64,000 nt of DNA from Saliphagus infecundisoli (lineage in GTDB: Archaea > Halobacteriota > Halobacteria > Halobacteriales > Natrialbaceae), in assembly GCF_020177375.1 (NCBI RefSeq), contig NZ_JAIWHV010000001.1:496001-560000 (forward strand), read 5' to 3'. Numbering within the stretch: the first letter of the stretch is position 1; each line of letters starts with the position of its first letter. A program made the position numbers and the translations under genes. The notes under the pieces were generated by a model. That model ran no database searches. It was not told where the DNA came from and saw only the letters and a program-made list of their open reading frames with translations. This document shows, one piece after another, positions 36,972 through 51,139 of this stretch.

Positions 36972-37015
36972 GGCCGGAAGTCGGCATCCCCCCGGCATAG
37001 GTACTTCGAACTCTC

Positions 37016-37834
37016 CTATCCCTCCCGGTCGCGGATCCAGCCCTCGCTCCCGTACTTCCGGTCGGCGAGGTCTCGTGCGGCCTCGAGCTCCTCCTCGCGC
37101 CACTCGCCCTCGACCGCTCCACACCACTCCCCCAGCGCGTCTCCCAGGATCTCGACGGCCTCCTCGCGGTCGATCCCCGCCTGTTCGCGGATGCTCGTCA
37201 CCCGCCTCTCGAACATCTCGGAGGCGACGTCGCCCTCGAAACAGCCGACGTGACGGACCGGTTCGAGATCGAACGATATCGAACCGTGCTGGATGACCAC
37301 GTCGCGCCGGCGGTACTGGGCGTTGCCGCTGATCTTTCTCGCCTCGGTACCCGACCCCGCGGGCGCGACGATGTCGTGGGCGGGATTGATGTCTCGAAGG
37401 TAGCAGGAGGGGTAGTAGATCGCCTCTCGCTTTTCGCCCGCGAAGTCGGCATCGACGCCCATCCGGCCGAGGGCTGCGAGGATCGGCTCACAGAAGAGGG
37501 CATAGCACGCCATCAGATCGCCGGGAACCTCGTCGGCGGGTGCGACGATCGTATACGAGATGTCCCCGTGGCGGTCGTGGTAGATTCCGCCGCCGCCGGT
37601 CTGTCTGCGGGTGACGTCGATCCCCTCCCGGTCGCAGAAGTCCCAGTCAACAGTGTCGGGTTCCTGTCGGTAGCCGAGCGAGAGGGTGCTCGGCTCCCAG
37701 GAGTACGTTCGAACGGTCCGCACTCCCTCCTCGACGGCCGTCCGTCCGGCGACCTCCTCGATGGCCATCTGGGTCGCCCCCTCGCGTGGGTCGTCCCGGA
37801 TCAGGCGCCACTCGCGGTCCGCGAGGTCGGTCAT
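37016..37834 (-). CDS. Lipoate-protein ligase A family protein
   Basis: The 272-residue protein of the BPL/LplA fold has the family signature [20 protein letters not shown] near residue 78 and the adenylate-site Lys in [20 protein letters not shown] near 165. It should attach lipoate (or octanoate) to E2/GcvH proteins. The separate small C-terminal LplA domain of E. coli is replaced by a short helical tail. The start at 37834 ([12 protein letters not shown]) is preferred over an ATG 27 codons upstream because conservation begins here. Octanoyl/lipoyl transferase activity is an alternative. Confidence 0.88.
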
Positions 37835-37971
37835 GGCTCGTCGGAGGTTCCACGGGAAGAAAGCGATTGTGACGGGCGGGAGAGCGCCGGTGTTCGCTCG
37901 CCACGGCAATTTCATATCGCGCCATACGATTTATTGGCCGTGCTACGGGCCGGCTACCGGACGGGAACCCC

Positions 37972-37977
37972 TTTTAC
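37972..37977 (+). promoter_or_regulatory. TATA box for rio2
   Basis: TTTTAC lies 23-28 bp before the ATG at 38000. Confidence 0.5.
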
Positions 37978-37999
37978 GTCCGCGCAGGCTACCCCGCCC

Positions 38000-38908
38000 A
38001 TGGTGCGGAACGTCGCCGATCTCATGCCGGAACTCGAGCAGGACGACTTCTATCTCCTCTCGGGCGTCGAACAGGGAATGCGCTTCTCGGAGTGGGTAAA
38101 CCGGGGGAAGCTTCCGGAGTTTTCGGGACTCTCGCCCGAGAACGTCGAGTACCGACTCGAGCGCGCGCTCAAACGCGGACTGGTCGAGAAGAAAACCCTC
38201 CAGTACGAGGGGTACACCCTCCAGTTCGAGGGGTACGACGCCCTGGCCCTGCGCGCGCTCGCCGAACGCGAGACGATCAGCGAGTTCGGCTCTCCCCTCG
38301 GGGTCGGCAAGGAAAGCGACGTCTACGAGGTCAAATCCTACAAACCGCTGGCGCTGAAGTACCACCGCGAGGGGTACACCAACTTCCGGGCGGTCGACAA
38401 GGAACGCGACTACACCTCCGACAACGACCACGTCTCTTGGATGTACACTGCCCGGAAGGCCGCCGAGCGCGAACTCGAGATTCTAGAGGAGTTATACCCG
38501 GAGGTCAGCGTCCCCCGACCGATCGACGGCAACCGTCACGCCATCGTGATGGAGAAGATGGCCGGGGTCGAGCTCTCGCGGGCGAAACTCGAGGACGAGC
38601 AAGTGGTCGGCGTCCTCGACTTGATCCTCCGGGAGATGGCAGGCGCCTACGACGCGGGCTACGTCCACGCCGACATGAGCGAGTACAACGTCTTCGTCGG
38701 CGAGGAGGGAGTCACGGTGTTCGACTGGCCCCAGGCGGTTCCCACGGATCACGACCACGCCGCGGAGTTCCTCGTGCGCGACGCGGAGAACCTGATCGGC
38801 TACTTCCGCCGGAAGTACCCCCAGTCCGTGCCCGAGATCGACGCCGAGCGGGTCGCGAACGCGATTTCGGAGGGGTCGTTCGAGTCGGTGCGGGCACTAG
38901 CTCGATAA
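38000..38908 (+). CDS. rio2: RIO2-type atypical serine/threonine kinase
   Basis: RIO2 acts in late 40S/30S-type ribosomal subunit maturation. In this 302-residue protein the N-terminal winged-helix domain (residues 1-90, with EYRLERALKRGLVEKKTLQY) is followed by the nucleotide loop GSPLGVGKESDVYEVKSY near 95. The catalytic loop GYVHADMSEYNVFV lies near 218 and the metal motif VFDWPQAVP near 240, matching RIO2 (HADLSEYN/DFPQ). The winged helix distinguishes it from RIO1. It has its own leaderless promoter. It is convergent with the methyltransferase that ends the 38993 cluster. Confidence 0.94.
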   Translation: MVRNVADLMPELEQDDFYLLSGVEQGMRFSEWVNRGKLPEFSGLSPENVEYRLERALKRGLVEKKTLQYEGYTLQFEGYDALALRALAERETISEFGSPLGVGKESDVYEVKSYKPLALKYHREGYTNFRAVDKERDYTSDNDHVSWMYTARKAAERELEILEELYPEVSVPRPIDGNRHAIVMEKMAGVELSRAKLEDEQVVGVLDLILREMAGAYDAGYVHADMSEYNVFVGEEGVTVFDWPQAVPTDHDHAAEFLVRDAENLIGYFRRKYPQSVPEIDAERVANAISEGSFESVRALAR

Positions 38909-38992: not shown

Positions 38993-39892
38993 CTATCGGT
39001 TCCTGACCTGACCCAGGAAGTCGAGTTGGTGGGTGAGATAGCTCAACTCGCCCGCCTCGAGCTGGTCGCGTCTCGCGTTCATCCACGACGACAGGGGTTC
39101 GTCTCCATCGATCGTCTCCCCGACGGCGGACTCGACGGTATCGAGGATGTGCCCGAGGAAGTACGCCTCGTCGGCGGGGTAGGCGCCGTCGGACGGCCGG
39201 ACGATCCAGTCCGATCCCGCGACGCCGGTCAGGGCCATCCCCTCCATCGCCCGGAGTCTCTCGAGGACGTCCCCGCCGGCGCGAGCGCTTCCTCCGGGTT
39301 TGTGGTCCATGTGTTCGTGGTAGCGACGTTCGATCACGCCGTCGTCGGGGTGGGCCGGGCGAAACCGCGTCGCCCCGTCGAACGTGATCGGGAAGTAGTA
39401 GTATCCTCCGGGGGCGACCGCTCTGAGCAACGGCTCCAACCCACTGAGGTCGAAGACGTCGAGCAGCGCCGCCCCGATCAGCAGGTCGTGGCTCCGGTCG
39501 TCGCGCTCGACGAACGCGAGGGCGTCGGCGGCGACCGCCTCGACGGCGACCCGCCGGTCGGCCGTCTCGACGACGATTCGATCTCCACGGGTCTCGACGG
39601 TGGCGGCGTCCCCGCGAGCGTACTCCCGAAGATGACTCGTGACGTCCGCGGCCGTCTCCTCGCGGACGTCGACCGCCGTGTAGACGGTCTCGCCGGGCGG
39701 GAGCACCTCCCACTCGAGCAGGCGCATCACCATCGTCCCGATGCCGGCACCGACCTCGAGGACCGAAAGCGGCCCCTCCCGGTCGGCTCGCGCCGCGAGC
39801 CCCTCCCGGAGGGCCGAGAGCAGGCGCCGGTCGAGCGCCCGGTCGTCGACGGTTCGTTTCGCCTCGAGATAGCGCCGGAACGAGCCGCTCAC
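38993..39892 (-). CDS. SAM-dependent methyltransferase, last gene of the leftward cluster
   Basis: The 299-residue protein has a Rossmann motif I PLSVLEVGAGIGTMVMRLLE near residue 41, an acidic strand-2 YTAVDVREETAADV near 70 and a motif HDLLIGAALLDVFDLSGLEP near 135. A long C-terminal part rich in aromatic residues contains GGYYYFPITFDGATRF near 163 and the YHEHMDHKPGG loop, which may hold the substrate. It starts with a GTG that overlaps the stop of the GT4 gene (GTGA), so translation is coupled. Its substrate is probably the product of that glycosyltransferase or of the PTPS-like enzyme (inference). Confidence 0.85.
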   Translation of the reverse strand: MSGSFRRYLEAKRTVDDRALDRRLLSALREGLAARADREGPLSVLEVGAGIGTMVMRLLEWEVLPPGETVYTAVDVREETAADVTSHLREYARGDAATVETRGDRIVVETADRRVAVEAVAADALAFVERDDRSHDLLIGAALLDVFDLSGLEPLLRAVAPGGYYYFPITFDGATRFRPAHPDDGVIERRYHEHMDHKPGGSARAGGDVLERLRAMEGMALTGVAGSDWIVRPSDGAYPADEAYFLGHILDTVESAVGETIDGDEPLSSWMNARRDQLEAGELSYLTHQLDFLGQVRNR

Positions 39893-40947
39893 GTCGCGGC
39901 CCTCGCGACGCCGGCCAGGAGGTCACGGACGCGATCGGTCGTCTCGCTCCATCCGGGGTGGGCCTCGTAGCGCCGTCGGGCGGCCCGCCCCATCGCGGCG
40001 AGTTCCCCGCGGTCGGTCGCCAGTTGATCGAGGGCCGCCGCGACGGCCCCGGGATCGTCCGGGGCCACGAGGAACCCGTTCTCGCCGTCGGTGACGACGT
40101 CGCGTGCGCCCCCCGCGCTCGACGCCACCGCCGGGAGGCCGAAGCTCATCCCCTCGAGATAGACGATCCCGAACCCCTCGTGGCGCGAGGGCACCGCAAC
40201 GACGTGTGAGCGCGCGAGGGTCCCGGCGAGGCGCTCGTCTGCGAGTTCGCCGGTCATCCGGATGCGATCGCCGAGGCCCTGCTCGCGGATCGTACGCGCG
40301 ACCGCCCGGAAGTGGTCCGTATCGACCGGTCGGCCGACAACGGTCACCTCCATCGGGGCGTCCGCGCGGGCGACGGCCTCGACGAGCGTGTCGAGGCCCT
40401 TCCTGGGGGCGACGTTCCCGACGAAGACGACCCGGAGGGGCCCCTCCTCGGCTCGCTCCTCGATGGTCCGGTCGGCGATCTCCGGATCGAACCGGTCGCC
40501 CGCCGGCGGGGCCACGACGCAGGCCCGAGGATCGACGCCGAGATCGACGACGCTGTCGCGGGTCGGGGCGCTGTTACAGATCACGGCGTCTACGGTGTCG
40601 AGGTATCGCCGCTCGACGGCACGGTACAGGGGCGCCAGTCGCCGGGGTTCGCTCGCGCGCAGGTGGTGGACGATGCTGACGATCGGCTGGTCGAGCCGGC
40701 GGTTCGTCGAGACCAGCGAGGGATGTGCGAGTTCGTCCTGGAGCAAGACGTCGGCGCCGGTCTCGAGACGTCGCCGGAACCCCGGGGAGGCGTTGTCCGC
40801 CAGCCCGCGGCCGTACCCCCGCCAGGGCAGTTCGATGACGGTGACGGTATCGCCGGCCCGCCGGAGCCCGGAGACGAGCCGCCGGTCGTACCGAAACCCC
40901 CCCGAACGCCCGTCGATGCTCCCGTACAGCGCCAGGCCGACCCTCAT
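39889..40947 (-). CDS. GT4-family glycosyltransferase
   Basis: The 352-residue GT-B enzyme has an N-terminal acceptor domain, MRVGLALYGSIDGRSGGFRY, with the loop VSIVHHLRASEPRRLAPLY near residue 90. The nucleotide-sugar domain starts at LRVVFVGNVAPRKGLDTLVE near 175 and shows the GT4 ExFG-like motif VVAVPSRHEGFGIVYLEGMS near 252 and GGARDVVTDGENGFLV. It is probably a retaining transferase using a nucleotide-activated hexose. It overlaps the PTPS-like gene upstream by four bases (ATGA) and the methyltransferase downstream by four (GTGA). These overlaps tie the three activities together. No signal or membrane segment is present. Confidence 0.9.
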   Translation of the reverse strand: MRVGLALYGSIDGRSGGFRYDRRLVSGLRRAGDTVTVIELPWRGYGRGLADNASPGFRRRLETGADVLLQDELAHPSLVSTNRRLDQPIVSIVHHLRASEPRRLAPLYRAVERRYLDTVDAVICNSAPTRDSVVDLGVDPRACVVAPPAGDRFDPEIADRTIEERAEEGPLRVVFVGNVAPRKGLDTLVEAVARADAPMEVTVVGRPVDTDHFRAVARTIREQGLGDRIRMTGELADERLAGTLARSHVVAVPSRHEGFGIVYLEGMSFGLPAVASSAGGARDVVTDGENGFLVAPDDPGAVAAALDQLATDRGELAAMGRAARRRYEAHPGWSETTDRVRDLLAGVARAAT

Positions 40948-41321
40948 ACGCTCGCTTCGTAGGCGCCACTCGCCACGTCGTCCTCCCGGACGGTGACGCC
41001 GAGACCCGTGACGGTTTCGTCGCCGACGCGCTCGGTCACCGCCTCGAAGATCACGCGCGCGAACCGCTCGACGCTGGGGTTCGTGCCCTCGAACTCGGGG
41101 TGGTCGTTGAGCAGTTCGTCGCGGTAGCGATCGGCCAGCGCCGACAGCGTCGCCTCCGCGTCGTCGATGTCGACGAGGTAGTCGTACTCGTTCAACTCGG
41201 GGCCCGAGAACGTCAGTTCCACCTCGTAGCGGTGGGAGTGTGGGACGCCTTCCGGCCCGGGATCGGGCACGGTGAGGTAGTGCTGTGCGACGAACGCCAC
41301 GGACACCGTCGTTTCGTACAC
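40944..41321 (-). CDS. 6-pyruvoyltetrahydropterin synthase/QueD-like protein with altered catalytic residues
   Basis: The 125-residue protein has the T-fold and the three zinc His of the PTPS family: His14 in FVAQHYLT, His28 and His30 in VPHSHRYEV. At the place of the catalytic Cys (CxxxHGH in QueD) it has Glu24 (EGVPHSH), which recalls the PTPS-III group. The Asp-His pair of LDHxxLN is replaced by RDELLND (Asp68-Glu69). The family-typical NPSVERFA and VTVREDD remain. It could make a pterin-like or deaza product or do a different reaction. The start is GTG at 41321, supported by a GATTTAGG box 26-33 bp upstream; the frame is open to 41456. Confidence 0.82.
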   Translation of the reverse strand: MYETTVSVAFVAQHYLTVPDPGPEGVPHSHRYEVELTFSGPELNEYDYLVDIDDAEATLSALADRYRDELLNDHPEFEGTNPSVERFARVIFEAVTERVGDETVTGLGVTVREDDVASGAYEASV

Positions 41322-41346
41322 GTCCGAACGGAGGGAGGCCACACAC

Positions 41347-41354
41347 CTAAATCC
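41347..41354 (-). promoter_or_regulatory. TATA box for the PTPS-GT4-methyltransferase unit
   Basis: Read leftward it is GATTTAGG, 26-33 bp before the GTG at 41321. It sits between GGAGG and CCTCC, which could form a small hairpin. Confidence 0.5.
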
Positions 41355-41456
41355 TCCAGGCGGGGTGGCTACGGCGTCCTCGGACGGATCGACCGGCTCC
41401 TGTTGGCCCTTCGAGGGCAGCGCGAAGCGGCCGGTCCCGTTCTCCGACCGTCTCAT

Positions 41457-41534
41457 AGGGACGGAGACGAGTCAGTGCACCGTCGGTCGCAATACGGCGC
41501 TGCGGCCGAACGGTAACTCGTCGTCTCCGACCCT
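41457..41534 (-). repeat. Dispersed inverted-repeat element, copy B
   Basis: The 78-bp element is about 80% identical to the one at 7636-7711 and lies in the opposite orientation. Its ends pair over 16 bp with one mismatch (41455-41470 with 41521-41536). The interior GTTCGG...CGACCGA pairing and the block GTGCACTGACTCG are kept. It directly abuts the stop codon of the MDR dehydrogenase gene and lies in the 214-bp gap before the PTPS-like gene. The rest of the gap (41355-41454) has no clear feature. Confidence 0.7.
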
Positions 41535-41535
41535 A

Positions 41536-42522
41536 TCACTCGTACCTGAACGCGGCCTGTATCACGCCGTCGCGGCGCTCGTCGACCACCCGGTAGGCCC
41601 GCTTTGCGTCCCCGATCTCGAACTCGTGGGTGAGCACGGGAGAGAGGTCGGCGTCGGCCAGCCAGGAGGTGACGTACTCCATCCGGCGCCGTTTGTCCCA
41701 CCGGTCGGCGTGGTCCGGGTCGATCCGGCTCACCTGGCTCGAGCGGACCCTGACGTGGCTGCGGTGGTACTGTTCGTCCAGCCGGAGGCTGACGTCTTTC
41801 GTTTCGTACCACGAGCCGACGATCACCCTCCCCGCGAACCCGGCGACGTCGATCGCCTCGCCGAGCGCCTCGGGATTGCCCGACAGCTCGAGGCTGACGT
41901 CGGCCGGTTCGGAGAGCACCGACTCGACCGCGTCGGGCGAGACCGCCCGATCGGCGCCGAAGGACTCCGAGACGGCCCGCCGTTTCTCGTCGTAGTCGAC
42001 CGTGACCAGCTCCGCGAGGGGGAACTCGGCGAGCAGCGCCGTCGTCAGGCCGATCGATCCCTGGCCGAAGACGACGACCCCGCTTCCGATCCGTGGCCGG
42101 GCGTCCATCACGAAGTTGACCGCCGCCTCGACGGTGGGGACGAACAGCGCCCGTTCGGGTGCGAGCGTCGTCGGGACGAGCGCCTCCGGGTCGGCCGTGA
42201 AGTGGCTCTCGTGGGGATTGAACGCGAACACCCGCCTGTCGAGCCACTCCTCGCCGACGTCCGCGCCCGTCTCGGCGACCCGCCCGACGGCCGCGTACCC
42301 GTACTGGAGCGGGTACGAGAACTCGCCGTCGAGGGCCTCGATCGTCTCGTCGGCCGCCGCCCCGGCGGAGATCTCCCCGCGGTAGACGAGCAGCTCCGTC
42401 CCCGGGCTCATCGCGGTGCGCTCGGTTCGGACGAGCACCTCCCCCGCCTCGGTCTCGGGCACCGGCCGATCGCGGACCTCGACCGACCGCTCGCCGGTGA
42501 AGAAAAGCGATCGCCGGCTCAT
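41536..42522 (-). CDS. MDR-superfamily dehydrogenase lacking zinc ligands
   Basis: The 328-residue protein has the medium-chain dehydrogenase layout: an N-terminal GroES-like part with RTERTAMSPGTELLVYRGE near residue 33 and a Rossmann part with SGVVVFGQGSIGLTTALLAE near 150 and VTVDYDEKRRAVSESFGAD. The sequence has no Cys at all, so neither the catalytic nor the structural zinc site of ADH can form; Ser replaces the catalytic Cys. The SPGTELLVYRGE pattern recalls BchC-like dehydrogenases. The C-terminal VSRIDPDHADRWDKRRRMEY is characteristic. It probably oxidises or reduces an intermediate of the cluster. It is followed by the inverted-repeat element. Confidence 0.87.
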   Translation of the reverse strand: MSRRSLFFTGERSVEVRDRPVPETEAGEVLVRTERTAMSPGTELLVYRGEISAGAAADETIEALDGEFSYPLQYGYAAVGRVAETGADVGEEWLDRRVFAFNPHESHFTADPEALVPTTLAPERALFVPTVEAAVNFVMDARPRIGSGVVVFGQGSIGLTTALLAEFPLAELVTVDYDEKRRAVSESFGADRAVSPDAVESVLSEPADVSLELSGNPEALGEAIDVAGFAGRVIVGSWYETKDVSLRLDEQYHRSHVRVRSSQVSRIDPDHADRWDKRRRMEYVTSWLADADLSPVLTHEFEIGDAKRAYRVVDERRDGVIQAAFRYE

Positions 42523-42637
42523 CGGTCGAGGGGCCTCGGCGGCGCTGTTCGGCCCCTTCGCGGGCGTCTCCGGCGGCGTTCCCGGATTCTCACGTCACCA
42601 CCGCGGGAGCGTCCCGGAATAAGTCTGTTCCCAACCA

Positions 42638-43522
42638 TCAGCGGTATCCGAGCGCCGCCAGGCGCTCGCGGTCGGTCGCCTCGCCGTGGACGCGGGAGAC
42701 GGGCAACGGTTCGGGGGGCACAAGCGAGGGGCTCCGGGTCGAGCGGTCGGTGCCGGTCGTCACCGCCCAGGGAACCTCGAGCAGGGCGGGGACGGGCGTG
42801 TACATCGGATGGCCGTACAGCCCCCACTCCCCGAAGAGGTTGCCGTGGTCGGCAGTGATCGCGACCCGTCCCTCGACGTTTTCGAGCAGGACCTCGACCT
42901 CGCAGAGGACGTACCGGAGGTTCGCCTCGTAGGCCCTCCGGACGCGGCGGCTCCCGATCTCCCCCCGGCGAAGCGAGATCCAGGGGTTCGCCGGGCTGCT
43001 CTCCTCGCCCGACCGGACCATTCCCTCGTCTCCCTCGAGGGGGTCGGGAACGAACGGGTGGTGGGGCTGCATGTAGTGGACGACCAGGAACTCGGGGTCG
43101 CGTTCGCGGGCGAGTGCGATCGCCCGGTCGGTCACCGCCCGCGCCGGGATCGTCCCCGACTCGTCGTCCCAGGCGTACTTCCAGACCTCGTCCATGGCGG
43201 CGAACGCGCCGGCATCGAGGTAGCGGTCGGTCCAGGTGTTGCCGGTGACCATCGCGGTTCGGGCGGTCTCCGGGCGCCCGGGGAACGTGTTCTCGAGCCA
43301 CTCCGACGAACAGCTCCCGACCGACCGCACCGTCTCGACCTCGCCCAGAAACGGGACGTGGGGCGCGACCGACGCGAGCAGGTCCGCCCGGCAGGCGTCG
43401 AGGACGACCAGCACGTCCCACTCGCGCTCGAAGACGTTCTCGCCGTAGTCGAGTCGGCGGCCGACGGCCTGGAGCGTGCGCAGATACGCCGTCCCCAGAG
43501 GTCCCATTCCCGGTTCTCTCAC
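42638..43522 (-). CDS. Alkaline-phosphatase-superfamily (sulfatase-like) protein
   Basis: The 294-residue protein opens its core with WDVLVVLDACRADLLASVAP near residue 35 (first metal Asp). A region VRSVGSCSSEWLENTFPG near 65 could supply the Ser/Thr/Cys nucleophile. FLVVHYMQPHHPFVPD near 150 and the metal motif AITADHGNLFGEWGLYGHPM near 220 follow. There is no signal peptide or membrane anchor, so it may act in the cytosol on phosphate or sulfate esters, or as a transferase. The nucleophile cannot be fixed from sequence alone. The GTG at 43522 is supported by a GGTTTTGC box about 25-30 bp upstream; an ATG at 43507 is the alternative. Confidence 0.8.
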   Translation of the reverse strand: MREPGMGPLGTAYLRTLQAVGRRLDYGENVFEREWDVLVVLDACRADLLASVAPHVPFLGEVETVRSVGSCSSEWLENTFPGRPETARTAMVTGNTWTDRYLDAGAFAAMDEVWKYAWDDESGTIPARAVTDRAIALARERDPEFLVVHYMQPHHPFVPDPLEGDEGMVRSGEESSPANPWISLRRGEIGSRRVRRAYEANLRYVLCEVEVLLENVEGRVAITADHGNLFGEWGLYGHPMYTPVPALLEVPWAVTTGTDRSTRSPSLVPPEPLPVSRVHGEATDRERLAALGYR

Positions 43523-43541
43523 GGCCGTCGTTGGACGGCCG
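43522..43541. promoter_or_regulatory. Perfect 8-bp palindrome in the divergent promoter of the cluster
   Basis: CGGCCGTC and GACGGCCG are separated by four bases. It lies exactly between the GTG of the leftward phosphatase-like gene and its TATA-like box, in the 91-bp region shared with the rightward fusion gene. A regulator bound here could control both arms. Confidence 0.45.
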
Positions 43542-43583
43542 CGGGCAAAACCGCTCCGGCGACATCCCGTTCCCGCCGAACCG

Positions 43584-43589
43584 TATTTG
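43584..43589 (+). promoter_or_regulatory. TATA box for the Gfo-AKR fusion gene
   Basis: TATTTG lies 25-30 bp before the GTG at 43614 and supports that start over the longer open frame. Confidence 0.5.
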
Positions 43590-43613
43590 TCCCTCGGGAC
43601 CTCCCCTCGGAAC

Positions 43614-45587
43614 GTGCACTGCCTGTTCGTCGGAGCCGGGTCGATCGCCGGGGCCTACGCCGACGGCCTCGACGGGAGTCGTCTCGACCCCGCCGGGGTC
43701 TGTGACCTCGACGCCGACAGAGCCGAGACCCTCGCGGCCCGCCTCGGCTGTCCGTCCTTTAGCGACCTCGACGCGGCGCTGTCGGCCGTCGAGGCGCCTC
43801 TCGTCGTGAATCTGACGAGCCACCGCGCCCACGCTTCGGTGACGCGGACCGCGCTGTCGGCCGGGCGCCACGTCTACTCACAGAAGCCCCTCGCGCTCTC
43901 GGCGGAGACGGCCATCGACCTCGTCGAGACGGCCGAGGACCGCGGCCTCGCGCTCGGGTGTGCGCCGGAGTCTCCACGGGGTCCCTCACAGCGCCGGGCG
44001 GCGGGCCTGCTTGCCGACGGCCGACTCGGGGCGGTCCGGCTGGGATACGCCCACGCCCACGTCGGACGGGTGACCGACTGGCACGACCGCCCCGAGTCGT
44101 TCCTCGAGATCGGGCCGCTGTACGACGGCGGCGTCTACCCGCTCACGCTGCTCGTCTCGTGGTTCGGTCCGGTCGAACACGTACGGGTCGCCGACGCGCT
44201 CTCCCCCTGGCCCGGACGCGAGTCCCGGCGGCCGTCGGTTCCCTCCCACGTCGAGGCGACGCTGTCGTTCGCCGACGGCCCGACGGTCAGGCTGACCGCG
44301 AGCTTCTACGCCCCACACCGGGCCAGGGAGTTCTACGGGCTCGAGCTTCACGGCGACGACGGCTCGCTGTATCTCGCGGGCAGCGGCGCGATGGACACCG
44401 ACGAGGACGACCTCCGGTTCGGCCGCCTCGGCCGCGAGTACACCTCCGTTCCCTCACAGTGGCCGACGGAGCCGGCGCGCTACATCGACGGTCCCGACCG
44501 GCTCGCGGCGTCCGTCGAGGCAGGGACCCCCGAGCGAGCGACCGGACGCCGGGGCGCCCACGTCGTCGCGGTCTGTAACGCCATCGAGACGGCCGCCGAC
44601 TCGGGGGGGCCGGTCCCCGTTGCGGGCGTCGGGGCCGCGGCCGACCGGCGCGTCGCTCCGGTGGGGGCGACACCCGCGTCGGGAGGGCACTCCTCCGAGC
44701 GGAGCGCACTCCGTCTCCCGGCGGTCGGCTTCGGCTGTTCGCGCTATCGCGACGGGACGTACGTCGATCGCCGGGAGTCGATCGCGACGGCCCTGGATGC
44801 GGGCTATCGCCTGCTCGATGGCGCCGAGCTCTACGGCAACGAACGCCGGATCGGCGACCTGCTCGCGGCGCCGGGTTCTCCCGACCGCGAGGCCGTCTTC
44901 CTCGTCGGAAAGGTCTGGCGGACGAACCACCGTTCCGATCACCTGCTCGCCGCCTGCGAGGGCAGCCTCTCGGAGCTCGGGATCGACGCCTTCGACTGCT
45001 ACGCCCTCCACTGGCCGGGGGCCTGGGCCCACCGCGGCCCGCTCGAGCGCCTCGCGGACCTGCCCGTCGCGGAGGCCGAACGGCTCGCCTTCCCCGAGAC
45101 CGACGACGGCGACCCCGAGACGGCACCGATCGCGCTGGCCGATGCCTGGCGGACCCTCGAAGAAGTCCACGAACGGGGATGGGCGCGAACCCTCGGAATC
45201 TGCAACGTCTCGCGCGAGCAGGTCGAGACGGTGCTCGAGGCGGGAACGATCGACCCCGCGCTGGTCTCGGTCGAGCGCCACCCCTACCGGCCGCGTTCGG
45301 AGCTGATCGAGTTCTGTCACGAGCGCGGGATCCGGGTCGTCGCCCACGCGCCGCTTTCGGCCCCCGGACTGCTCGATGAGCCCGTACTCGCCGAGATCGG
45401 CGCCGAGTACGGGCTGTCGCCCACCGGCGTCGTCGTCGCCTGGAACCGGAGCGAGGGCGTCGTTCCGATCCCCTCGAGCACCACGACCGAACACGTCGTG
45501 GCGAACCTGGCCGCAGGGGCCACCCGGCTCTCCGACCGCGACCGCGACCGCGTCGCCTCGCTCGCCGATCCCGGCTTCGAGCGGTGA
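43614..45587 (+). CDS. Fusion of a Gfo/Idh/MocA oxidoreductase and an aldo/keto reductase
   Basis: In this 657-residue protein the first part (1-330) is a Gfo/Idh/MocA enzyme: CLFVGAGSIAGAYADGL at residues 3-19, SQKPLALSAETAIDLV near 87 (Lys of the EKP motif) and FLEIGPLYDGGVYPLTLLVS near 164. A Gly/Ala/Pro-rich linker (about 335-365) leads to a complete AKR domain. That domain has LPAVGFGCSRYRDGTY near 366, Asp and Tyr in LLDGAELYGNERR near 402-407, Lys in FLVGKVWRTN near 432, His in ALHWPGAW near 466 and the PSSTTTEHVVANL cofactor site near 620. Both active sites look intact. It probably carries out two linked redox steps on one sugar or polyol. The start is GTG. Confidence 0.88.
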   Translation: MHCLFVGAGSIAGAYADGLDGSRLDPAGVCDLDADRAETLAARLGCPSFSDLDAALSAVEAPLVVNLTSHRAHASVTRTALSAGRHVYSQKPLALSAETAIDLVETAEDRGLALGCAPESPRGPSQRRAAGLLADGRLGAVRLGYAHAHVGRVTDWHDRPESFLEIGPLYDGGVYPLTLLVSWFGPVEHVRVADALSPWPGRESRRPSVPSHVEATLSFADGPTVRLTASFYAPHRAREFYGLELHGDDGSLYLAGSGAMDTDEDDLRFGRLGREYTSVPSQWPTEPARYIDGPDRLAASVEAGTPERATGRRGAHVVAVCNAIETAADSGGPVPVAGVGAAADRRVAPVGATPASGGHSSERSALRLPAVGFGCSRYRDGTYVDRRESIATALDAGYRLLDGAELYGNERRIGDLLAAPGSPDREAVFLVGKVWRTNHRSDHLLAACEGSLSELGIDAFDCYALHWPGAWAHRGPLERLADLPVAEAERLAFPETDDGDPETAPIALADAWRTLEEVHERGWARTLGICNVSREQVETVLEAGTIDPALVSVERHPYRPRSELIEFCHERGIRVVAHAPLSAPGLLDEPVLAEIGAEYGLSPTGVVVAWNRSEGVVPIPSSTTTEHVVANLAAGATRLSDRDRDRVASLADPGFER

Positions 45588-45629
45588 GCCGACGGTGTGA
45601 CTATGTGTCCCTACCACGTTGTGGGTGCC

Positions 45630-46016
45630 ATGAGCACGGCCACGACCCGCGAAACGGCATCCGGTATCGACGCACTCGGCGCGATCCACTGGCTCGGCGT
45701 CCTCGCTGCCCTCGTCTCGGCCGGCGTCCACCTCCTGTTGGGGGTACGAATGATCCCCTCGGCGCTCGGCATCAGTTTCGTCCTCGCCGGCCTCGGCTTC
45801 GTCGGGGGGGTCGTCCTCGTCCTCGCCGGCGTCCGGCGCCGGGCGGTGTACGCCGTCGGCATCCCGTTCACCGCGATCCAGATCGTCCTCTGGTACGCGG
45901 TCAACTTCGCGGGGACGGACGCCTCGATCCCCGGCGACGTCGGCACCCTGGGCGCGGTGGACAAGATCGCACAGGTCGTCCTCCTCGCCGTGTTGGTGGT
46001 CCTGGTGCGCCGATAA
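45630..46016 (+). CDS. Four-helix membrane protein
   Basis: The 128-residue product has hydrophobic segments near residues 18-36, 42-62, 68-85 and 108-126, with a short polar N-terminus (MSTATTRETASGIDALGAIH). It resembles small haloarchaeal membrane proteins (DUF7475-like, recalled only). The ATG at 45630 is preferred over one 11 codons upstream because an ACTATGTG box lies about 24-31 bp before it. It sits between the fusion gene and the CDP-alcohol phosphatidyltransferase, but its role is unknown. Confidence 0.7.
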   Translation: MSTATTRETASGIDALGAIHWLGVLAALVSAGVHLLLGVRMIPSALGISFVLAGLGFVGGVVLVLAGVRRRAVYAVGIPFTAIQIVLWYAVNFAGTDASIPGDVGTLGAVDKIAQVVLLAVLVVLVRR

Positions 46017-46142
46017 CCGGCGCCCGCGTGCTTATGGCTCTCCGGTCCTCGACGTGGGGACGAACGTGTCGATGGCGCCGGCGAACCGGGGTCGTGTGAA
46101 CGGCGAGGGTCGGTCGCGCGAGCGCCGCCTGGGGGGAGGGTG

Positions 46143-46892
46143 ATGGCCAACAGCGAGCCCAGCGCCCGCGTCCGGTCCGGCGTCTTCCTCGTCGGGCCGG
46201 CGGTCGCCGCGGGCTGTCTGATGGCTATCCTCTGGCCGCTGTTCGCTCTCGGCGACACACCGACGATCCTCCCGGTGCTCGTCGTCGGGGTGGCCTGGAC
46301 GGGTCAGCTCTGGTACGTCAACTACGCCGTCGGGGCGAAATCGACCCTCGGCAGGCTCGGCCTGGCGAACGCGCTGACGATCCTCCGGGGGGCGCTGTAC
46401 GCGGTCGTCGCGGGGTTCGTCGTCGTCCCCGCGGGGACGGCGCTGGCGTGGGTCCCCGCGGCGTGTTACGGTGCCGGCGTCCTCGTGGACAGACTCGACG
46501 GCGCCGTCGCGCGCACGGTCGGCCGGGAGACGGAACTCGGGCGGCGCCTGGACATGGCGTTCGACACGTTCGGGTTCGCCGCCGCGCCCCTCGTCGCGGT
46601 GCTCTGGGGCCTGTTGCCGGCGTACTACCTCGTCCTTTCGGCTGCGCGGTACGTCTTTGTCGCCGCCGTCGGACTCCACCGCCGGCGGGGCGGGCAGGTC
46701 CACCCGCTTCCGGACAGCGACCTCGGGAAGTACCTCGCGGGCGGCCAGATGGCGTTCGTGACCGTCGCGCTCGCGCCGCCCGCACCGACCGGCCTCGTCC
46801 ACGCCGTCGCACCCGTCGTCCTCGCGCCCTCGCTTGCCGTCTTCGCGCGCGACTACCTCTACGCCACCGGCCGGCTCGGCGCCGAGGACTGA
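46143..46892 (+). CDS. CDP-alcohol phosphatidyltransferase family protein
   Basis: The 249-residue membrane protein has about six to seven hydrophobic segments. The complete CDP-alcohol phosphotransferase signature D-x2-D-G-x2-A-R-x8-G-x3-D-x3-D lies near residues 117-140, seen as DRLDGAVAR followed by GRRLDMAFD. It should transfer a phosphatidyl-type group from a CDP-lipid (CDP-archaeol in archaea) to an alcohol. The acceptor cannot be read from sequence. The ATG at 46143 directly follows a possible GTG at 46140. A short upstream frame (46072-46143) ends across this start. It is followed by the YdjM-like and PAP2 genes on the same strand. Confidence 0.9.
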   Translation: MANSEPSARVRSGVFLVGPAVAAGCLMAILWPLFALGDTPTILPVLVVGVAWTGQLWYVNYAVGAKSTLGRLGLANALTILRGALYAVVAGFVVVPAGTALAWVPAACYGAGVLVDRLDGAVARTVGRETELGRRLDMAFDTFGFAAAPLVAVLWGLLPAYYLVLSAARYVFVAAVGLHRRRGGQVHPLPDSDLGKYLAGGQMAFVTVALAPPAPTGLVHAVAPVVLAPSLAVFARDYLYATGRLGAED

Positions 46893-46917
46893 TCCCCTTT
46901 CGAACCCCACGAACGGT

Positions 46918-47385
46918 ATGCTCTTTCCGACCCACCTCCTCGCGGCGGCGTTGCTCTCCCGGGTCACGCGGCTGCCGGCGGCGTGGCTCGTCGTCGGCGC
47001 GGCGGTTCCCGACCTCGTCGACAAGCCACTGGGGGTCCTCGGCGTGACCGCCTTGTTTCACTCCGTGGGCCACTCGCTGGTCCTGGCCGTCGTCGTCGTG
47101 CCGATCGCGCTCTCGGGGCGGGCCGGCCTGGCGGTCGCGACGGGATGGGCGTCCCATCTCGCCCTCGACGTGACCCACGTCGTCGTCAACGGCCGGCCCG
47201 CCGACGCGTTGTTCGCGTTCTGGCCCCTGATCTCGCCGCCGGATCCGCTCGGGCTCCCGCCGGGCGCGTTCGTCGGGTACTATCTCGGTTCGCCCGCGTT
47301 CTTCATCGAGGTCGCCGTCTGGACGACGCTGGCGGCCGTCGCTCTCCGGAGTCGTCTCCGGGCTCGCCGGGCCGACGCGGGGTGA
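46918..47385 (+). CDS. Membrane-bound YdjM-like (DUF457) metal-dependent hydrolase family protein
   Basis: The 155-residue product opens with MLFPTHLLAAALLSRVTRLP, where an early His is typical of the YdjM family. VVGAAVPDLVDKPLGVL near residue 25 (Asp-rich motif), LFHSVGHSLVLAVVVVP near 46 (two His) and GWASHLALDVTHVVVNG near 78 (His, Asp, His) follow. These form the family's metal-site pattern inside about four membrane helices. The family is annotated as membrane-bound hydrolases, but substrates are poorly known. It starts 25 bp after the phosphatidyltransferase stop, so it is probably cotranscribed. Confidence 0.85.
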   Translation: MLFPTHLLAAALLSRVTRLPAAWLVVGAAVPDLVDKPLGVLGVTALFHSVGHSLVLAVVVVPIALSGRAGLAVATGWASHLALDVTHVVVNGRPADALFAFWPLISPPDPLGLPPGAFVGYYLGSPAFFIEVAVWTTLAAVALRSRLRARRADAG

Positions 47386-47412
47386 TCGATCGCGGGGTGG
47401 CCGACCAGTGAG

Positions 47413-47418
47413 ACTAAT
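47413..47418 (+). promoter_or_regulatory. TATA-like box for the PAP2 gene
   Basis: ACTAAT lies 25-30 bp before the ATG at 47443, so the PAP2 gene may also be transcribed on its own. Confidence 0.4.
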
Positions 47419-47442
47419 CCCGCGCGGCCGTAGCGTCGGTGC

Positions 47443-48009
47443 ATGGACGCCGTTCTCGTCGAACTGCTGGAGGTCGTCGTGTGGCTCGACCACCGCGCGG
47501 TCGAACTGATGCTCGCGATTCGACACCCGGTGGTGACGAAGTTGCTGACGTCGGTGACGGGCCTCGGGTCGGCAACCGCGGCGCTCGTCTTCCTCGGCGT
47601 GTGCAGGCTCGCGGGGTGGACCGACGAACTCCGGTCGGCCGGGATCGCCCTCGGGCTCGCCGGCATCGCCGTCCTGGCGTTGATGTGGACGATCCGGCGC
47701 CCGTTCCCCCCGGAGCCGGTCTGTCTGACCGACGGGTCCCCCACGGTCGCCACCTCCTTTCCGTCCGGACACGCCGCCGTCGTGGCGGTGTACGCGATGA
47801 CGGCCCGTCGCTCGGCCGTAGTGCCGGTCGCCCCGGTCGCCGTCCTGGCGGGGGCGGTCGCGGTCTCCCGGGTCTATCTGGGGACCCACTACGCCTCGGA
47901 TACGCTCGCGGGGCTCGTGATCGGCGTCTGTGCGTTCGTCCTCGCCCTCCGGCTCCGCGAGCGTTTCGACCTTGACGCCGCCGTCGCGGGGCTTCGGTCC
48001 CGTCAATGA
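47443..48009 (+). CDS. PAP2-family membrane phosphatase
   Basis: The 188-residue protein has about five membrane helices. It carries the three PAP2 motifs: an Arg-Pro-containing MWTIRRPFPPEPV near residue 85 (motif 1, with the Lys position replaced), TSFPSGHAAVVAVY near 103 (motif 2) and VSRVYLGTHYASDTLAGLV near 144 (motif 3 with SR...H...D). It should dephosphorylate a lipid phosphate or polyprenyl diphosphate at the membrane. It closes the rightward arm of the 38993-48009 cluster, where a lipid-phosphate phosphatase fits the lipid-head-group idea. Confidence 0.9.
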   Translation: MDAVLVELLEVVVWLDHRAVELMLAIRHPVVTKLLTSVTGLGSATAALVFLGVCRLAGWTDELRSAGIALGLAGIAVLALMWTIRRPFPPEPVCLTDGSPTVATSFPSGHAAVVAVYAMTARRSAVVPVAPVAVLAGAVAVSRVYLGTHYASDTLAGLVIGVCAFVLALRLRERFDLDAAVAGLRSRQ

Positions 48010-48163: not shown

Positions 48164-48754
48164 ATGGCAAAGAGCTTCTACTCACACATCAAGGAGGCAT
48201 GGAAGGACCCCGGCGACGGAAAGCTCGGGGAGCTCCAGTGGCAACGAAAACAGGAGTGGCGCGACCAGGGCGCCATCGAGCGCATCGAGCGCCCGACCCG
48301 CCTCGACAAGGCCCGCGGACTGGGCTACAAGGCAAAACAGGGCGTCGTCGTCGCACGCGTCGCCGTCCGGAAGGGCACTGCCCGCAAGCAACGCCACAAG
48401 GCGGGCCGGCGATCGAAGCGCCAGGGCGTCAACCGGATCGGCCGCCGGAAGAACATCCAGCGCATCGGTGAGGAGCGCGTCACCCGGAAGTATCCCAACC
48501 TGCGGGTGCTCAACAGTTACTGGGTCGGGGAGGACGGCTCCCAGAAGTGGTTCGAAGTGATCCTCGTCGATCCGAACCACCCGGCGATCGAGAACGACGA
48601 CGACCTGGGCTGGATCTGTGGCGACGACCACGAGAACCGCGCGCTGCGCGGACTCACCGGGGCCGGCAAGAAGAACCGTGGTCTCGACAACCGCGGCACG
48701 GGCGCCGAGAAGGTCCGTCCGAGCAACAACGGCGACCGCGGCCGCGGGAAGTAA
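48164..48754 (+). CDS. rpl15e: 50S ribosomal protein L15e
   Basis: The 196-residue archaeal/eukaryotic-type ribosomal protein begins MAKSFYSHIKEAWKDPGDGK. The basic core ARVAVRKGTARKQRHKAGRR near residue 65, NRIGRRKNIQRIGEERVTRK near 88 and LRVLNSYWVGEDGSQKWFEV near 112 are all typical of L15e. The C-terminal GLTGAGKKNRGLDNRGTGAE is the family end. It is unusually basic compared with neighbouring acidic proteins, as expected for an rRNA binder. Confidence 0.97.
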   Translation: MAKSFYSHIKEAWKDPGDGKLGELQWQRKQEWRDQGAIERIERPTRLDKARGLGYKAKQGVVVARVAVRKGTARKQRHKAGRRSKRQGVNRIGRRKNIQRIGEERVTRKYPNLRVLNSYWVGEDGSQKWFEVILVDPNHPAIENDDDLGWICGDDHENRALRGLTGAGKKNRGLDNRGTGAEKVRPSNNGDRGRGK

Positions 48755-48794
48755 CGGCTTGCGTCGTCGGGAACCTTGTGACGCGTGGCGGGCA

Positions 48795-48800
48795 CTTATT
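48795..48800 (+). promoter_or_regulatory. TATA box for the USP gene at 48825
   Basis: CTTATT lies 25-30 bp before the ATG at 48825. Confidence 0.45.
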
Positions 48801-48824
48801 CCGGTGGCGACCGTATCGCCAACC

Positions 48825-49259
48825 ATGGCGTCACACGTACTCGTCCCGGTCGACGACTCGGAGCGATCCGCAGACGCCCTCGAGTTCGCCCTGAACGAAC
48901 ACCCCGACGCCCGGATCACCGCGATCCACGTGATCGATCCCTCGGACTTCTACGCGGCGACGAGCGTCGAGACCGGCGGGATGGTGGACTACGAGCAGCT
49001 CCGCCAGAGCCACGAGACCCGCGCGGACGGGATCCTCAAGGACGCCCGCGAGCAGGCAGCCGAGCACGGCATAGAGATCGAGACCGACGACGTCGTCGGC
49101 AGCGTCCCGGGGTCGATCGTCGACTACGCCGAGGAGGAGGGCGTCGACCACGTCGTGATCGGTAGTCACGGCCGGACCGGTGCGAGCAGGATTCTCCTGG
49201 GAAGCGTCGCCGAAACCGTCGCCCGGCGGTCGCCGGTGCCGGTGACGATCGTCCGCTAG
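48825..49259 (+). CDS. Universal stress protein, UspA-like
   Basis: The 144-residue single-domain USP starts MASHVLVPVDDSERSADALE. The ATP-binding pattern G-x2-G-x9-G-S occurs in VVIGSHGRTGASRILLGSVA near residue 110, so it is the nucleotide-binding type. It probably acts as a cytosolic homodimer. Its TAG stop shares bases with the stop of the convergent PNPOx-like gene. Confidence 0.93.
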   Translation: MASHVLVPVDDSERSADALEFALNEHPDARITAIHVIDPSDFYAATSVETGGMVDYEQLRQSHETRADGILKDAREQAAEHGIEIETDDVVGSVPGSIVDYAEEEGVDHVVIGSHGRTGASRILLGSVAETVARRSPVPVTIVR

Positions 49260-49723
49260 CGCTCCGGAACCGACGCGAGACTTCCCGCGTACGACTGGTC
49301 GCGGGCGACGACGGTCTCCGGTTCGAAGCGGATCAGTCCCCAGCGGTCGGGATCGAGGTCGTGGAACATCGGATCCCATTCCTCGCGGTCGGGGCCGAGA
49401 TACTTTCCGAGCAGGTGCTCGACGCGTTTGCCGTCGAGCGGGACGATCGAGGCCTCTCCGCGCATCCCGACGTGTCTGACCAGTCCCTCCGTCGGATCGA
49501 AGTCGACGACCGCAAGCGCCGTCTCCGGACGCTCGCGGACGCGTTTCGCATAGGACTTCTCGACGGTGTCGGCGATGATCCAGACGCACTCGTCCTCCCA
49601 GAGAAACCACAGCGGTGATATCCGGGGACGGCCCTCCGGGGTCGCGGCTCCCAGGAAACAGAACAGCGGACGGTCGAGCACCGCCTCGATCCCCTTCTCG
49701 AGGGTGTTCTCGACGATCTCCAT
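49256..49723 (-). CDS. Pyridoxamine 5'-phosphate oxidase-like split-barrel protein
   Basis: The 155-residue product shows GATPEGRPRISPLWFLWEDE near residue 27 and ETALAVVDFDP near 67, the flavin-binding split-barrel pattern, followed by GMRGEASIVPL near 87. The family includes F420- or FMN-dependent reductases and haem-degrading proteins. The cofactor is unknown; F420 is plausible in haloarchaea. A CCTATTCG box lies about 25-30 bp upstream of the ATG at 49723. Confidence 0.85.
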   Translation of the reverse strand: MEIVENTLEKGIEAVLDRPLFCFLGAATPEGRPRISPLWFLWEDECVWIIADTVEKSYAKRVRERPETALAVVDFDPTEGLVRHVGMRGEASIVPLDGKRVEHLLGKYLGPDREEWDPMFHDLDPDRWGLIRFEPETVVARDQSYAGSLASVPER

Positions 49724-49771
49724 GGACCCAACGATGGGCCGGGGGGACGAATAGGTTTCCCGAACCGAGTT

Positions 49772-51139
49772 TCAGGAGTCGCCGACCAGGCAGTAGGCGT
49801 GGCCCGGGACGTCGACGATCACGTCGGCGTCCTCGCCGTCGTAGTTCGAGACGACCGCGCGTTCGGCGTAGTAGATCCGGCCGTCGCGGGGGACGACCTC
49901 GCTCGTGACGGTGCCCCGGTTCCCCACGCGCCACCGCCGGTCTCCGGTCTCCGCGTCGAGGGCGTAGGCGCCCGTGTCGTAGGAGCCGACGAGGACCGTC
50001 TCCCCCGTGGTGGCGAGTGCGCCGATGACGTCGCCGCCGACGTCGGCCCGCCAGACCTCCTCGCCGGTTCCCGCATCGAGCGCGCGGACGGAGTCGTCGT
50101 GGCCGCCCATGTAGACGACGTCGCGCTCGGGGTCGACCGCGGGGTCGCACATCACCCGCTTTCCGGTGTCGATCGACCACTCCTCGCTCCCGTCGGAAAG
50201 CGAGACCCGGTAGAAACGACCGTCCCAGGAGCCGAAAAACGCCGCGCTGTCGTAGAGCGCGGTCGTCCCCTTGAGCTGGGCGCCCCAGGTGAACGCGCCC
50301 CCTTCCTGGGGGTCGCCGTCGGGGCCGTCGGGGCCGCCGGCCTGGAACTCCCAGGCGAACTCCAGGGAGGGGAACTCCCAGGCGTAACAGACGCCGTCGT
50401 TCGAGGCCGTCACCAGCCGCTCGGCGTCGGGATCGATCGCTATCGAGGGGTGGGGCATCCCCCAGATCCGGTCGTCCGACCAGAGGGTCGCGCCCGTCTC
50501 CGCGTCGACGGCCCACAGCGCCCCCTCCTTCGGCCGGCGGTACTCGATGGCGACGTAGAGGACGCCCTCCCAGTAGGCCGGGCTCGAGCCGATCGCGACG
50601 GGGTCGTCGAAGGAATCGGTCCGCCACAGCACCTCGCCACTGGCGACGTCGAAGGCGTACAGCGCCCCGTCGTAGCCGCCGACGTAGGCGACGCCGTCGA
50701 CGACGGCGGGCGTCCCGTGAAACCCCTGGTAGGTCGCCTCGGTCTGTGTGGTCCAGAGGTGGCGCCCTTTCGGATCGCGGGCGTGGACCCGGCCGCTGTC
50801 GGCCGGAATGATGACCGTCTCGCCGTCGGGGGTCGGAAGCGGCGTCGACTTCGCGGCGGTGTGGCCGATGTAGTTCGCCGGGATCGCCCAGTTCTTCGAG
50901 ACGGAGTCCGGAACGGTTTCGTCGGGGTAGTAGCCCAGCCGCCGGAGCCCGCCCCGGTACATCGTGATCGCGTCGTCGTCGGGGTACGTTTCGGTGTAGG
51001 GAAGCGGGTCGTGGGCGAGGTCGCCCTGGTCGCGGTCGTAGGTATGGGAGTCCGCCCTGGGCGAGGTACAGCCCGCGAGCCCGACCAGACCGGCAGCACT
51101 GACGGCCTCGAGGAGCCGGCGGCGGTCGGGAACCGGCAC
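49772..51139 (-). CDS. Lipid-anchored PQQ-type beta-propeller protein
   Basis: The 455-residue product has the N-terminus DRRRLLEAVSAAGLVGLAGC, with a twin-arginine-like start and a lipobox Cys at residue 24. It is therefore exported and membrane-anchored. The rest consists of repeated PQQ-like blades, for example VDGVAYVGGYDGALYAFDVA and SGEVLWRTDS, ALWAVDAETGATLW, and VYMGGHDDSVRALDAGTG. The cofactor is not proven; many such proteins are BamB-like scaffolds without PQQ. The start is GTG at 51139, two bases after the stop of the PRTase gene, so the two are probably cotranscribed. Confidence 0.87.
   Translation of the reverse strand: MPVPDRRRLLEAVSAAGLVGLAGCTSPRADSHTYDRDQGDLAHDPLPYTETYPDDDAITMYRGGLRRLGYYPDETVPDSVSKNWAIPANYIGHTAAKSTPLPTPDGETVIIPADSGRVHARDPKGRHLWTTQTEATYQGFHGTPAVVDGVAYVGGYDGALYAFDVASGEVLWRTDSFDDPVAIGSSPAYWEGVLYVAIEYRRPKEGALWAVDAETGATLWSDDRIWGMPHPSIAIDPDAERLVTASNDGVCYAWEFPSLEFAWEFQAGGPDGPDGDPQEGGAFTWGAQLKGTTALYDSAAFFGSWDGRFYRVSLSDGSEEWSIDTGKRVMCDPAVDPERDVVYMGGHDDSVRALDAGTGEEVWRADVGGDVIGALATTGETVLVGSYDTGAYALDAETGDRRWRVGNRGTVTSEVVPRDGRIYYAERAVVSNYDGEDADVIVDVPGHAYCLVGDS

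Follow-up and report, generated by a model that had tools for sequence, protein, structure and literature searches.

Ten adjacent genes on a 64,000-nucleotide stretch of the haloarchaeon Saliphagus infecundisoli (contig NZ_JAIWHV010000001.1, positions 496,001 to 560,000; we call this whole stretch the window) bring together a PTPS-like T-fold protein, a glycosyltransferase, a methyltransferase and an enzyme of the kind that works on CDP-activated lipids. The cluster they belong to is conserved across domains, in haloarchaea and in many bacteria. We put at about even the chance that it encodes one conserved pathway from GTP to a glycosylated, methylated pteridine-type compound, which would be joined to a CDP-activated lipid in haloarchaea and in roughly half of the cluster-bearing Pseudomonadota. 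An initial annotation, made from the letters of the DNA, had proposed that the genes make a redox-tailored, glycosylated and methylated head group and link it to archaeol. Open reading frames and Pfam matches put all ten at the coordinates and on the strands it had given, in two head-to-head arms:

38993-39892, minus strand: predicted class I S-adenosylmethionine-dependent methyltransferase (AlphaFold2 model, Foldseek matches to class I methyltransferases, alignment with the methyltransferases of bacterial clusters)
39889-40947, minus strand: GT4 glycosyltransferase (PF00534, E 5e-35)
40944-41342, minus strand: PTPS-like T-fold protein (PF01242, E 1e-24; start uncertain, 41321 or 41456 being possible)
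41536-42522, minus strand: MDR-superfamily dehydrogenase, cysteine-free (PF00107)
42638-43522, minus strand: soluble AP-superfamily (sulfatase-like) enzyme (PF00884, E 1e-5, barely over the cut-off; no transmembrane segment predicted)
43614-45587, plus strand: Gfo/Idh/MocA and aldo/keto reductase (AKR) fusion (PF01408, E 2e-16; PF00248, E 9e-41)
45597-46016, plus strand: DUF7475 protein with four transmembrane helices (PF24287), the first bearing a histidine pair
46140-46892, plus strand: CDP-alcohol phosphatidyltransferase of a cluster-specific subfamily (PF01066)
46834-47385, plus strand: small membrane protein without a Pfam or NCBIfam match
47443-48009, plus strand: PAP2-family lipid phosphatase (PF01569, E 2e-15)

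The 4-bp overlaps reported between the PTPS-like and GT4 genes (40944-40947) and between the GT4 and methyltransferase genes (39889-39892) are there. The dehydrogenase had been called zinc-free, and this holds because the window protein has no cysteine in its whole sequence; the catalytic zinc-binding cysteine of a zinc alcohol dehydrogenase is therefore missing, and in the haloarchaeal alignment of the family a conserved SxGTE replaces the cysteine-containing motif. The label "YdjM-like" for the 46834-47385 protein is unconfirmed, no Pfam or NCBIfam family matching it. The methyltransferase matches PF13649 only below the Pfam cut-off. AlphaFold2 models it with confidence (pLDDT 94) as a Rossmann-fold methyltransferase of class I, the Foldseek search returned generic class I methyltransferases only, and the protein aligns as a homologue of the methyltransferase of bacterial clusters.

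The case for a single gene set begins in the haloarchaea. Among 292 genomes of the class, 171 have a relative of the PTPS-like gene. In 40 loci picked for diversity, its neighbours repeatedly include genes for the MDR enzyme, GT4, methyltransferase, CDP-alcohol transferase and DUF7475, so the arrangement is not a matter of chance. The transferase gene is no more than 10 kb from the PTPS-like gene in 29 of the 40. The other four genes are a recurrent subset of the haloarchaeal cluster: the Gfo-AKR fusion, as a single component, in 15 of the 40 loci, the soluble AP-superfamily protein in 12 (all 12 with the transferase), homologues of the small membrane protein in eight and a PAP2 call in seven. 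Across the 292 genomes, 162 have both the PTPS-like gene and the transferase, nine only the former, four only the latter and 117 neither (phi 0.91). With 162 genomes carrying both and 13 carrying one, the two arms belong together. The initial annotation had named separate profiles for the arms as the result that would sink it; the opposite was found, and the recurrent neighbourhood and shared profile bear out its view that the genes form one biosynthetic set. The window's own neighbours are ordinary: on the left (36099-38908) xylose-isomerase-like, lipoyl ligase and RIO2 kinase genes, on the right (48164-51139) genes for ribosomal protein L15e, Usp, a PNPOx-like protein and a PQQ beta-propeller.

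Conservation reaches well beyond close relatives. The MDR, PTPS-like, GT4 and methyltransferase core was found by tblastn on plasmids of Thiodictyon, Streptomyces, Rhizobium, Methylosinus and Microbacterium, the window GT4 being 34-35% identical to its Rhizobium and Methylosinus counterparts; a Palleronia plasmid has the core too, but with GT4 not directly in the run. Scanning 84,980 genomes with a bacterial-only PTPS alignment brought up at least 572 relatives, and the best 80 of these loci, mostly alphaproteobacterial and leaning to Rhizobiales and Rhodobacterales, were read. The 66 long loci among them carry MDR (66), methyltransferase (65), GT4 (59), RibD_C (48), CDP-alcohol transferase (42), AP-superfamily (38), RibA (33), cytochrome b561 (33) and LPG_synthase_TM (32) genes. 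An even draw of 299 genomes, which corrects the taxonomic lean within Pseudomonadota only, had the gene in 19 (about 6%); the 18 newly read loci from this draw hold MDR (18), GT4 (18), methyltransferase (16), RibD_C (16), CDP-alcohol transferase (7), LPG_synthase_TM (7) and RibA (7). Two contigs of "Aquiluna" metagenome-assembled genomes binned as Actinomycetota (L125 and L156) contain a cluster of the Rhodobacterales type, and in the tree the PTPS gene of L125 branches with Palleronia, which suggests contaminated bins. A protein family of about 250 residues without a Pfam match (u8) adjoins or lies near the cluster or the CDP-alcohol transferase in six loci (L043, 12320-13066; L052; L059-L061; L071).

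What does the pathway start from? Bacterial clusters include GTP cyclohydrolase II (RibA, PF00925), a RibD C-terminal reductase (PF01872; E 2e-33 against the archaeal ArfC model TIGR01508, below the model cut-off) and sometimes a creatininase-family protein (PF02633). In 15 of the 40 haloarchaeal loci, plus one with a fragment (about 40%), the PTPS gene has GTP cyclohydrolase III (ArfA, PF05165) no further than 10 kb away, often immediately upstream of the MDR gene. ArfA and RibA are non-homologous. GTP cyclohydrolase III yields a formylamino-ribosylaminopyrimidine phosphate, GTP cyclohydrolase II forms this intermediate too and goes on to deformylate it, and creatininase-type and ArfB enzymes also remove the formyl group (PMC9478397). 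The starting compound would accordingly be a GTP-derived ribosylamino-pyrimidine; the initial annotation, limited to the window, could not see it in these relatives. The strongest evidence is that one gene set is accompanied by two cyclohydrolases that are unrelated yet alike in product class. Archaeal riboflavin synthesis (ArfA, ArfB, ArfC) presumably opens with the same GTP intermediates; the cluster differs in continuing to PTPS-like, GT4, methyltransferase and CDP-alcohol steps and in lacking genes for lumazine synthase and riboflavin synthase. A second ArfA copy occurs more often in haloarchaea with the PTPS-like gene (31/171) than in those without it (6/121; p 6e-4). In one genus (g45), four cluster-free genomes have no ArfA and two cluster carriers have it in the cluster, intact in G050 and as a fragment only in G269. 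ArfA was found in 287 of the 292 haloarchaea, the five without it being G079, G089, G140 and G145 of genus g45 and G044; these may be riboflavin auxotrophs or carriers of a replacement enzyme. In the window genome the sole ArfA lies 190 kb from the cluster.

In the PTPS-like protein, histidines H21, H35 and H37 and glutamate E120 are invariant or nearly so in 38-39 haloarchaeal sequences, and in PTPS and QueD enzymes such residues bind zinc and the ring of the substrate, respectively. E31, invariant in 38 of 38, occupies the position of the QueD catalytic cysteine. The nearest solved chain is 3d7j, SCO6650 of Streptomyces coelicolor, and a tree joins the haloarchaeal proteins and the SCO6650-type proteins of bacterial clusters in a clade apart from QueD (support 100/95, with long branches), which places the haloarchaeal protein as the sister of bacterial PTPS-IV. 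The bacterial cluster proteins read FGPAQxLHGA, with two of the three zinc histidines kept; FGPAQ is the PTPS-IV signature (PMC5445326). Haloarchaea have GPEG in its place, and the window motif, GPEGVPHSH, also departs from the CxxxHGH of PTPS-I (QueD), the CxxxxxHGH of PTPS-II and the ExxHGH of PTPS-III (class definitions in PMC5041015 and PMC5445326).

The bacterial PTPS-IV neighbourhood (SCO6650 type; 3d7j; AGeNNT cluster 62 in PMC5445326) is the closest known system. It shares with the haloarchaeal cluster the PTPS clade and the MDR, GT4, methyltransferase and CDP-alcohol transferase genes; a riboflavin-route GTP cyclohydrolase can lie near either, in haloarchaea as ArfA, of another family, in about 40% of the loci. 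The haloarchaea differ in having GPEGxxHSH rather than FGPAQxLHGA, ArfA rather than RibA, no RibD_C in the cluster and additional genes for AP, Gfo-AKR, DUF7475 and PAP2 proteins. The 2017 paper reported PTPS-IV adjoining PF00925 and PF01872 (RibA/RibD), with no other neighbours and no pathway (PMC5445326); its section 19 labels PF00925 "GTP cyclohydrolase I / FolE2", and in Pfam PF00925 is GTP cyclohydrolase II (RibA). The literature covered supports the earlier statement that no described pathway has this gene set, no paper in it setting out the pathway, but part of the neighbourhood was already in print. We found no paper on the full set, its haloarchaeal occurrence, the exchange of ArfA for RibA or the module of CDP-alcohol transferase, LPG and AP proteins, in searches that covered few subscription journals and so leave absence unproven; searches within the same coverage for pterin lipids, SCO6650 and halopterins returned nothing.

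The CDP-alcohol transferase brings in the membrane. It has the superfamily motif DxxDGxxAR(8x)GxxxDxxxD and six predicted transmembrane segments; D117, D120, G121, A124, R125, G134, D138 and D142 are invariant in 29 of 29 haloarchaeal sequences. Against the NCBIfam equivalogs for core phospholipid synthesis (PgsA, archaetidylserine, archaetidylinositol-phosphate, PIP) its best score is 31.6 bits, with cut-offs of 107-240. Assignment to a known core phospholipid step would have told against the initial annotation, and every equivalog match falls below its cut-off. The best of these weak matches, archaetidylinositol-phosphate synthase/PIP synthase, shares fold and motif, and its known members use a phosphorylated polyol as acceptor; the cluster enzyme scores 31 bits against a cut-off of 170-180 and forms a subfamily of its own, tied to the PTPS-like gene. 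In bacteria this subfamily stands out at more than 160 bits, versus about 30-58 for other family members, and is present in 9 of 19 Pseudomonadota with PTPS-IV and in none of 11 others. Loci with the transferase also have the flippase-like LPG_synthase_TM (7/7 versus 0/11 of those without it in the even draw; 31/42 versus 1/24 among the 66 long loci) and, in the Rhizobiales-type set, an AP-superfamily protein (38/42 versus 0/24) that combines five transmembrane segments with the AP domain. The transferase travels with these proteins, and so together they form a membrane module that many lineages, though not all, add to the core pathway. The acceptor of the transferase, we infer, would be the cluster's own product.

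The pathway can then be sketched, each enzymatic step being one that we infer. ArfA, or RibA in bacteria, would open GTP to 2-amino-5-formylamino-6-ribosylamino-pyrimidinone 5'-phosphate or to its deformylated counterpart, with ArfB or a creatininase-type formamidase taking off the formate. A RibD/ArfC-type reductase (in the cluster in bacteria; housekeeping ArfC or the Gfo-AKR fusion in the window organism) and the MDR enzyme could modify the sugar-derived side chain. The PTPS-like protein would hold the 2-amino-4-oxo ring through Glu120 and use its zinc site for a ring-closing or side-chain step, by a chemistry other than the Cys-His type of QueD. GT4 would then add a sugar and the methyltransferase a methyl group, and the CDP-alcohol transferase would link the side chain, in phosphorylated form, to CDP-archaeol or, in bacteria, to CDP-diacylglycerol. 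The PAP2 phosphatase and AP-superfamily enzyme may process the phosphate or phosphodiester, with DUF7475 and the small membrane protein as possible membrane partners. DUF7475 has two histidines 14 residues apart in its first transmembrane helix, H being invariant in 26 cluster copies and the Q, DK and RR motifs likewise in cluster copies; in the Natronorubrum cluster the first His is replaced by Glu. The spacing resembles that of di-heme cytochromes b. A fold search gave a four-helix bundle with no significant match in the PDB, so a di-heme cytochrome stays speculation. Together with the cytochrome b561 of bacterial clusters, the histidine pair hints, weakly, at a redox cofactor.

Several points weigh against this scheme. 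No core protein has a known product or enzyme activity. The PTPS-like protein lacks canonical catalytic residues, which makes its reaction a guess. RibD_C was not found in the clusters of the 40 haloarchaeal loci and the window contains no cyclohydrolase, so its first steps would need housekeeping enzymes. Fisher p-values ignore shared ancestry, and relatedness inflates their significance. And 10 of the 19 Pseudomonadota with PTPS-IV have no cluster-type transferase: lipid attachment would be lineage-dependent and outside the core, because about half of the cluster-bearing Pseudomonadota do without it.

Those ten genomes also speak for the alternative that survives best, unlikely as we consider it: a glycosylated and methylated pterin that is soluble, of the pteridine-glycoside kind like cyanopterin or limipterin. 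The PAP2 and AP proteins and the CDP-alcohol transferase would then act on a different polyol, used to decorate or export the pterin. Modified pterins, phosphohalopterin and sulfohalopterin, have been reported from haloarchaea, names that did not appear in the literature we searched. Pteridine glycosides and a pteridine glycosyltransferase are described in Chlorobium and cyanobacteria (PMC5683033, PMC3546692), and they carry a sugar on a pteridine, as we propose for the cluster. In haloarchaea, however, genomes with the PTPS-like gene almost always have the transferase as well (162/171). Known pteridine glycosides, moreover, begin with GTP cyclohydrolase I rather than II or III and, to our knowledge, involve neither a lipid step nor an MDR, methyltransferase and CDP-alcohol transferase set.

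A clearly less probable alternative keeps the lipid and changes the head group to a non-cyclised ribityl-diaminopyrimidine, a riboflavin-branch intermediate, with the PTPS-like protein as a binding or epimerase-type T-fold enzyme. RibA and the RibD_C reductase of bacterial clusters would yield just such a ribitylated pyrimidine, and the missing QueD/PTPS catalytic residues fit; against it, the T-fold family otherwise acts on pterins, and there is no conserved deaminase domain or lumazine synthase-like gene.

The remaining alternatives fare far worse. That two unrelated operons lie head to head by accident might be read from the divergent transcription of the arms in the window, but it is very improbable given their co-occurrence and the many haloarchaeal lineages in which the transferase gene immediately precedes MDR-PTPS, all on one strand, in an operon-like run (in bacteria, too, it lies beside MDR-PTPS); the window's layout is thus one of several for one set. 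A role of PTPS-IV-type proteins in coenzyme F420 synthesis was stated by Zallot et al. in 2016, citing unpublished work (PMC5041015, section 7). It is just as improbable: CofH is over its cut-off in one of 20 cluster-bearing bacterial genomes and has homologues in 58 of 59 haloarchaea, cluster-free ones included, a distribution independent of the cluster that leads us to reject F420 as the general function of PTPS-IV.

Least credible of all is that the PTPS-like gene is the QueD of archaeosine or queuosine synthesis among unrelated neighbours: annotation pipelines name the protein 6-carboxytetrahydropterin synthase, the window genome has no other PTPS-family gene, and the cluster protein shares with QueD/PTPS-I the T-fold, zinc histidines and ring-binding glutamate, but the CxxxHGH cysteine is gone, the conserved neighbours are not queC and queE, a distinct QueD family coexists with the cluster protein in 22 of 38 cluster-bearing genomes (59 haloarchaea sampled) and the tree splits the two, which together rule it out. 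On the NCBIfam QueD model TIGR03367 the window protein scores 46.5 bits against a cut-off of 89, a weak discriminator, as typical haloarchaeal QueD itself reaches 65-80. The absent cysteine motif and the coexisting QueD also disfavour the deazapurine option of the initial annotation, whose reading is partly supported, by the single gene set, the shared profile and the lack of a core phospholipid match, its link to archaeol being a conjecture. The window genome, more than 99% complete, has no QueD above E 1e-6 besides the cluster protein; de novo archaeosine synthesis may be absent there or proceed by another route.

The pathway from GTP that we favour has consequences beyond one haloarchaeon. 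Its gene set has been kept from haloarchaea to Rhizobium and Streptomyces and in about 6% of evenly drawn Pseudomonadota. It accounts for a widespread misannotation as 6-carboxytetrahydropterin synthase, and contradicts the published F420 assignment of the PTPS-IV subfamily. Haloarcula marismortui, Streptomyces and Methylosinus OB3b are culturable carriers; in Haloarcula marismortui and Haloarcula sinaiiensis the cluster lies on a plasmid. It is possible, though we lean against it, that haloarchaea and many bacteria share an unrecorded class of membrane lipid that bears as head group a GTP-derived, glycosylated and methylated pteridine or ribityl-pyrimidine and might serve as a lipid-anchored redox cofactor. 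Should the lipid step hold, the compound would represent a new kind of lipid head group and might be a pterin cofactor bound to the membrane.

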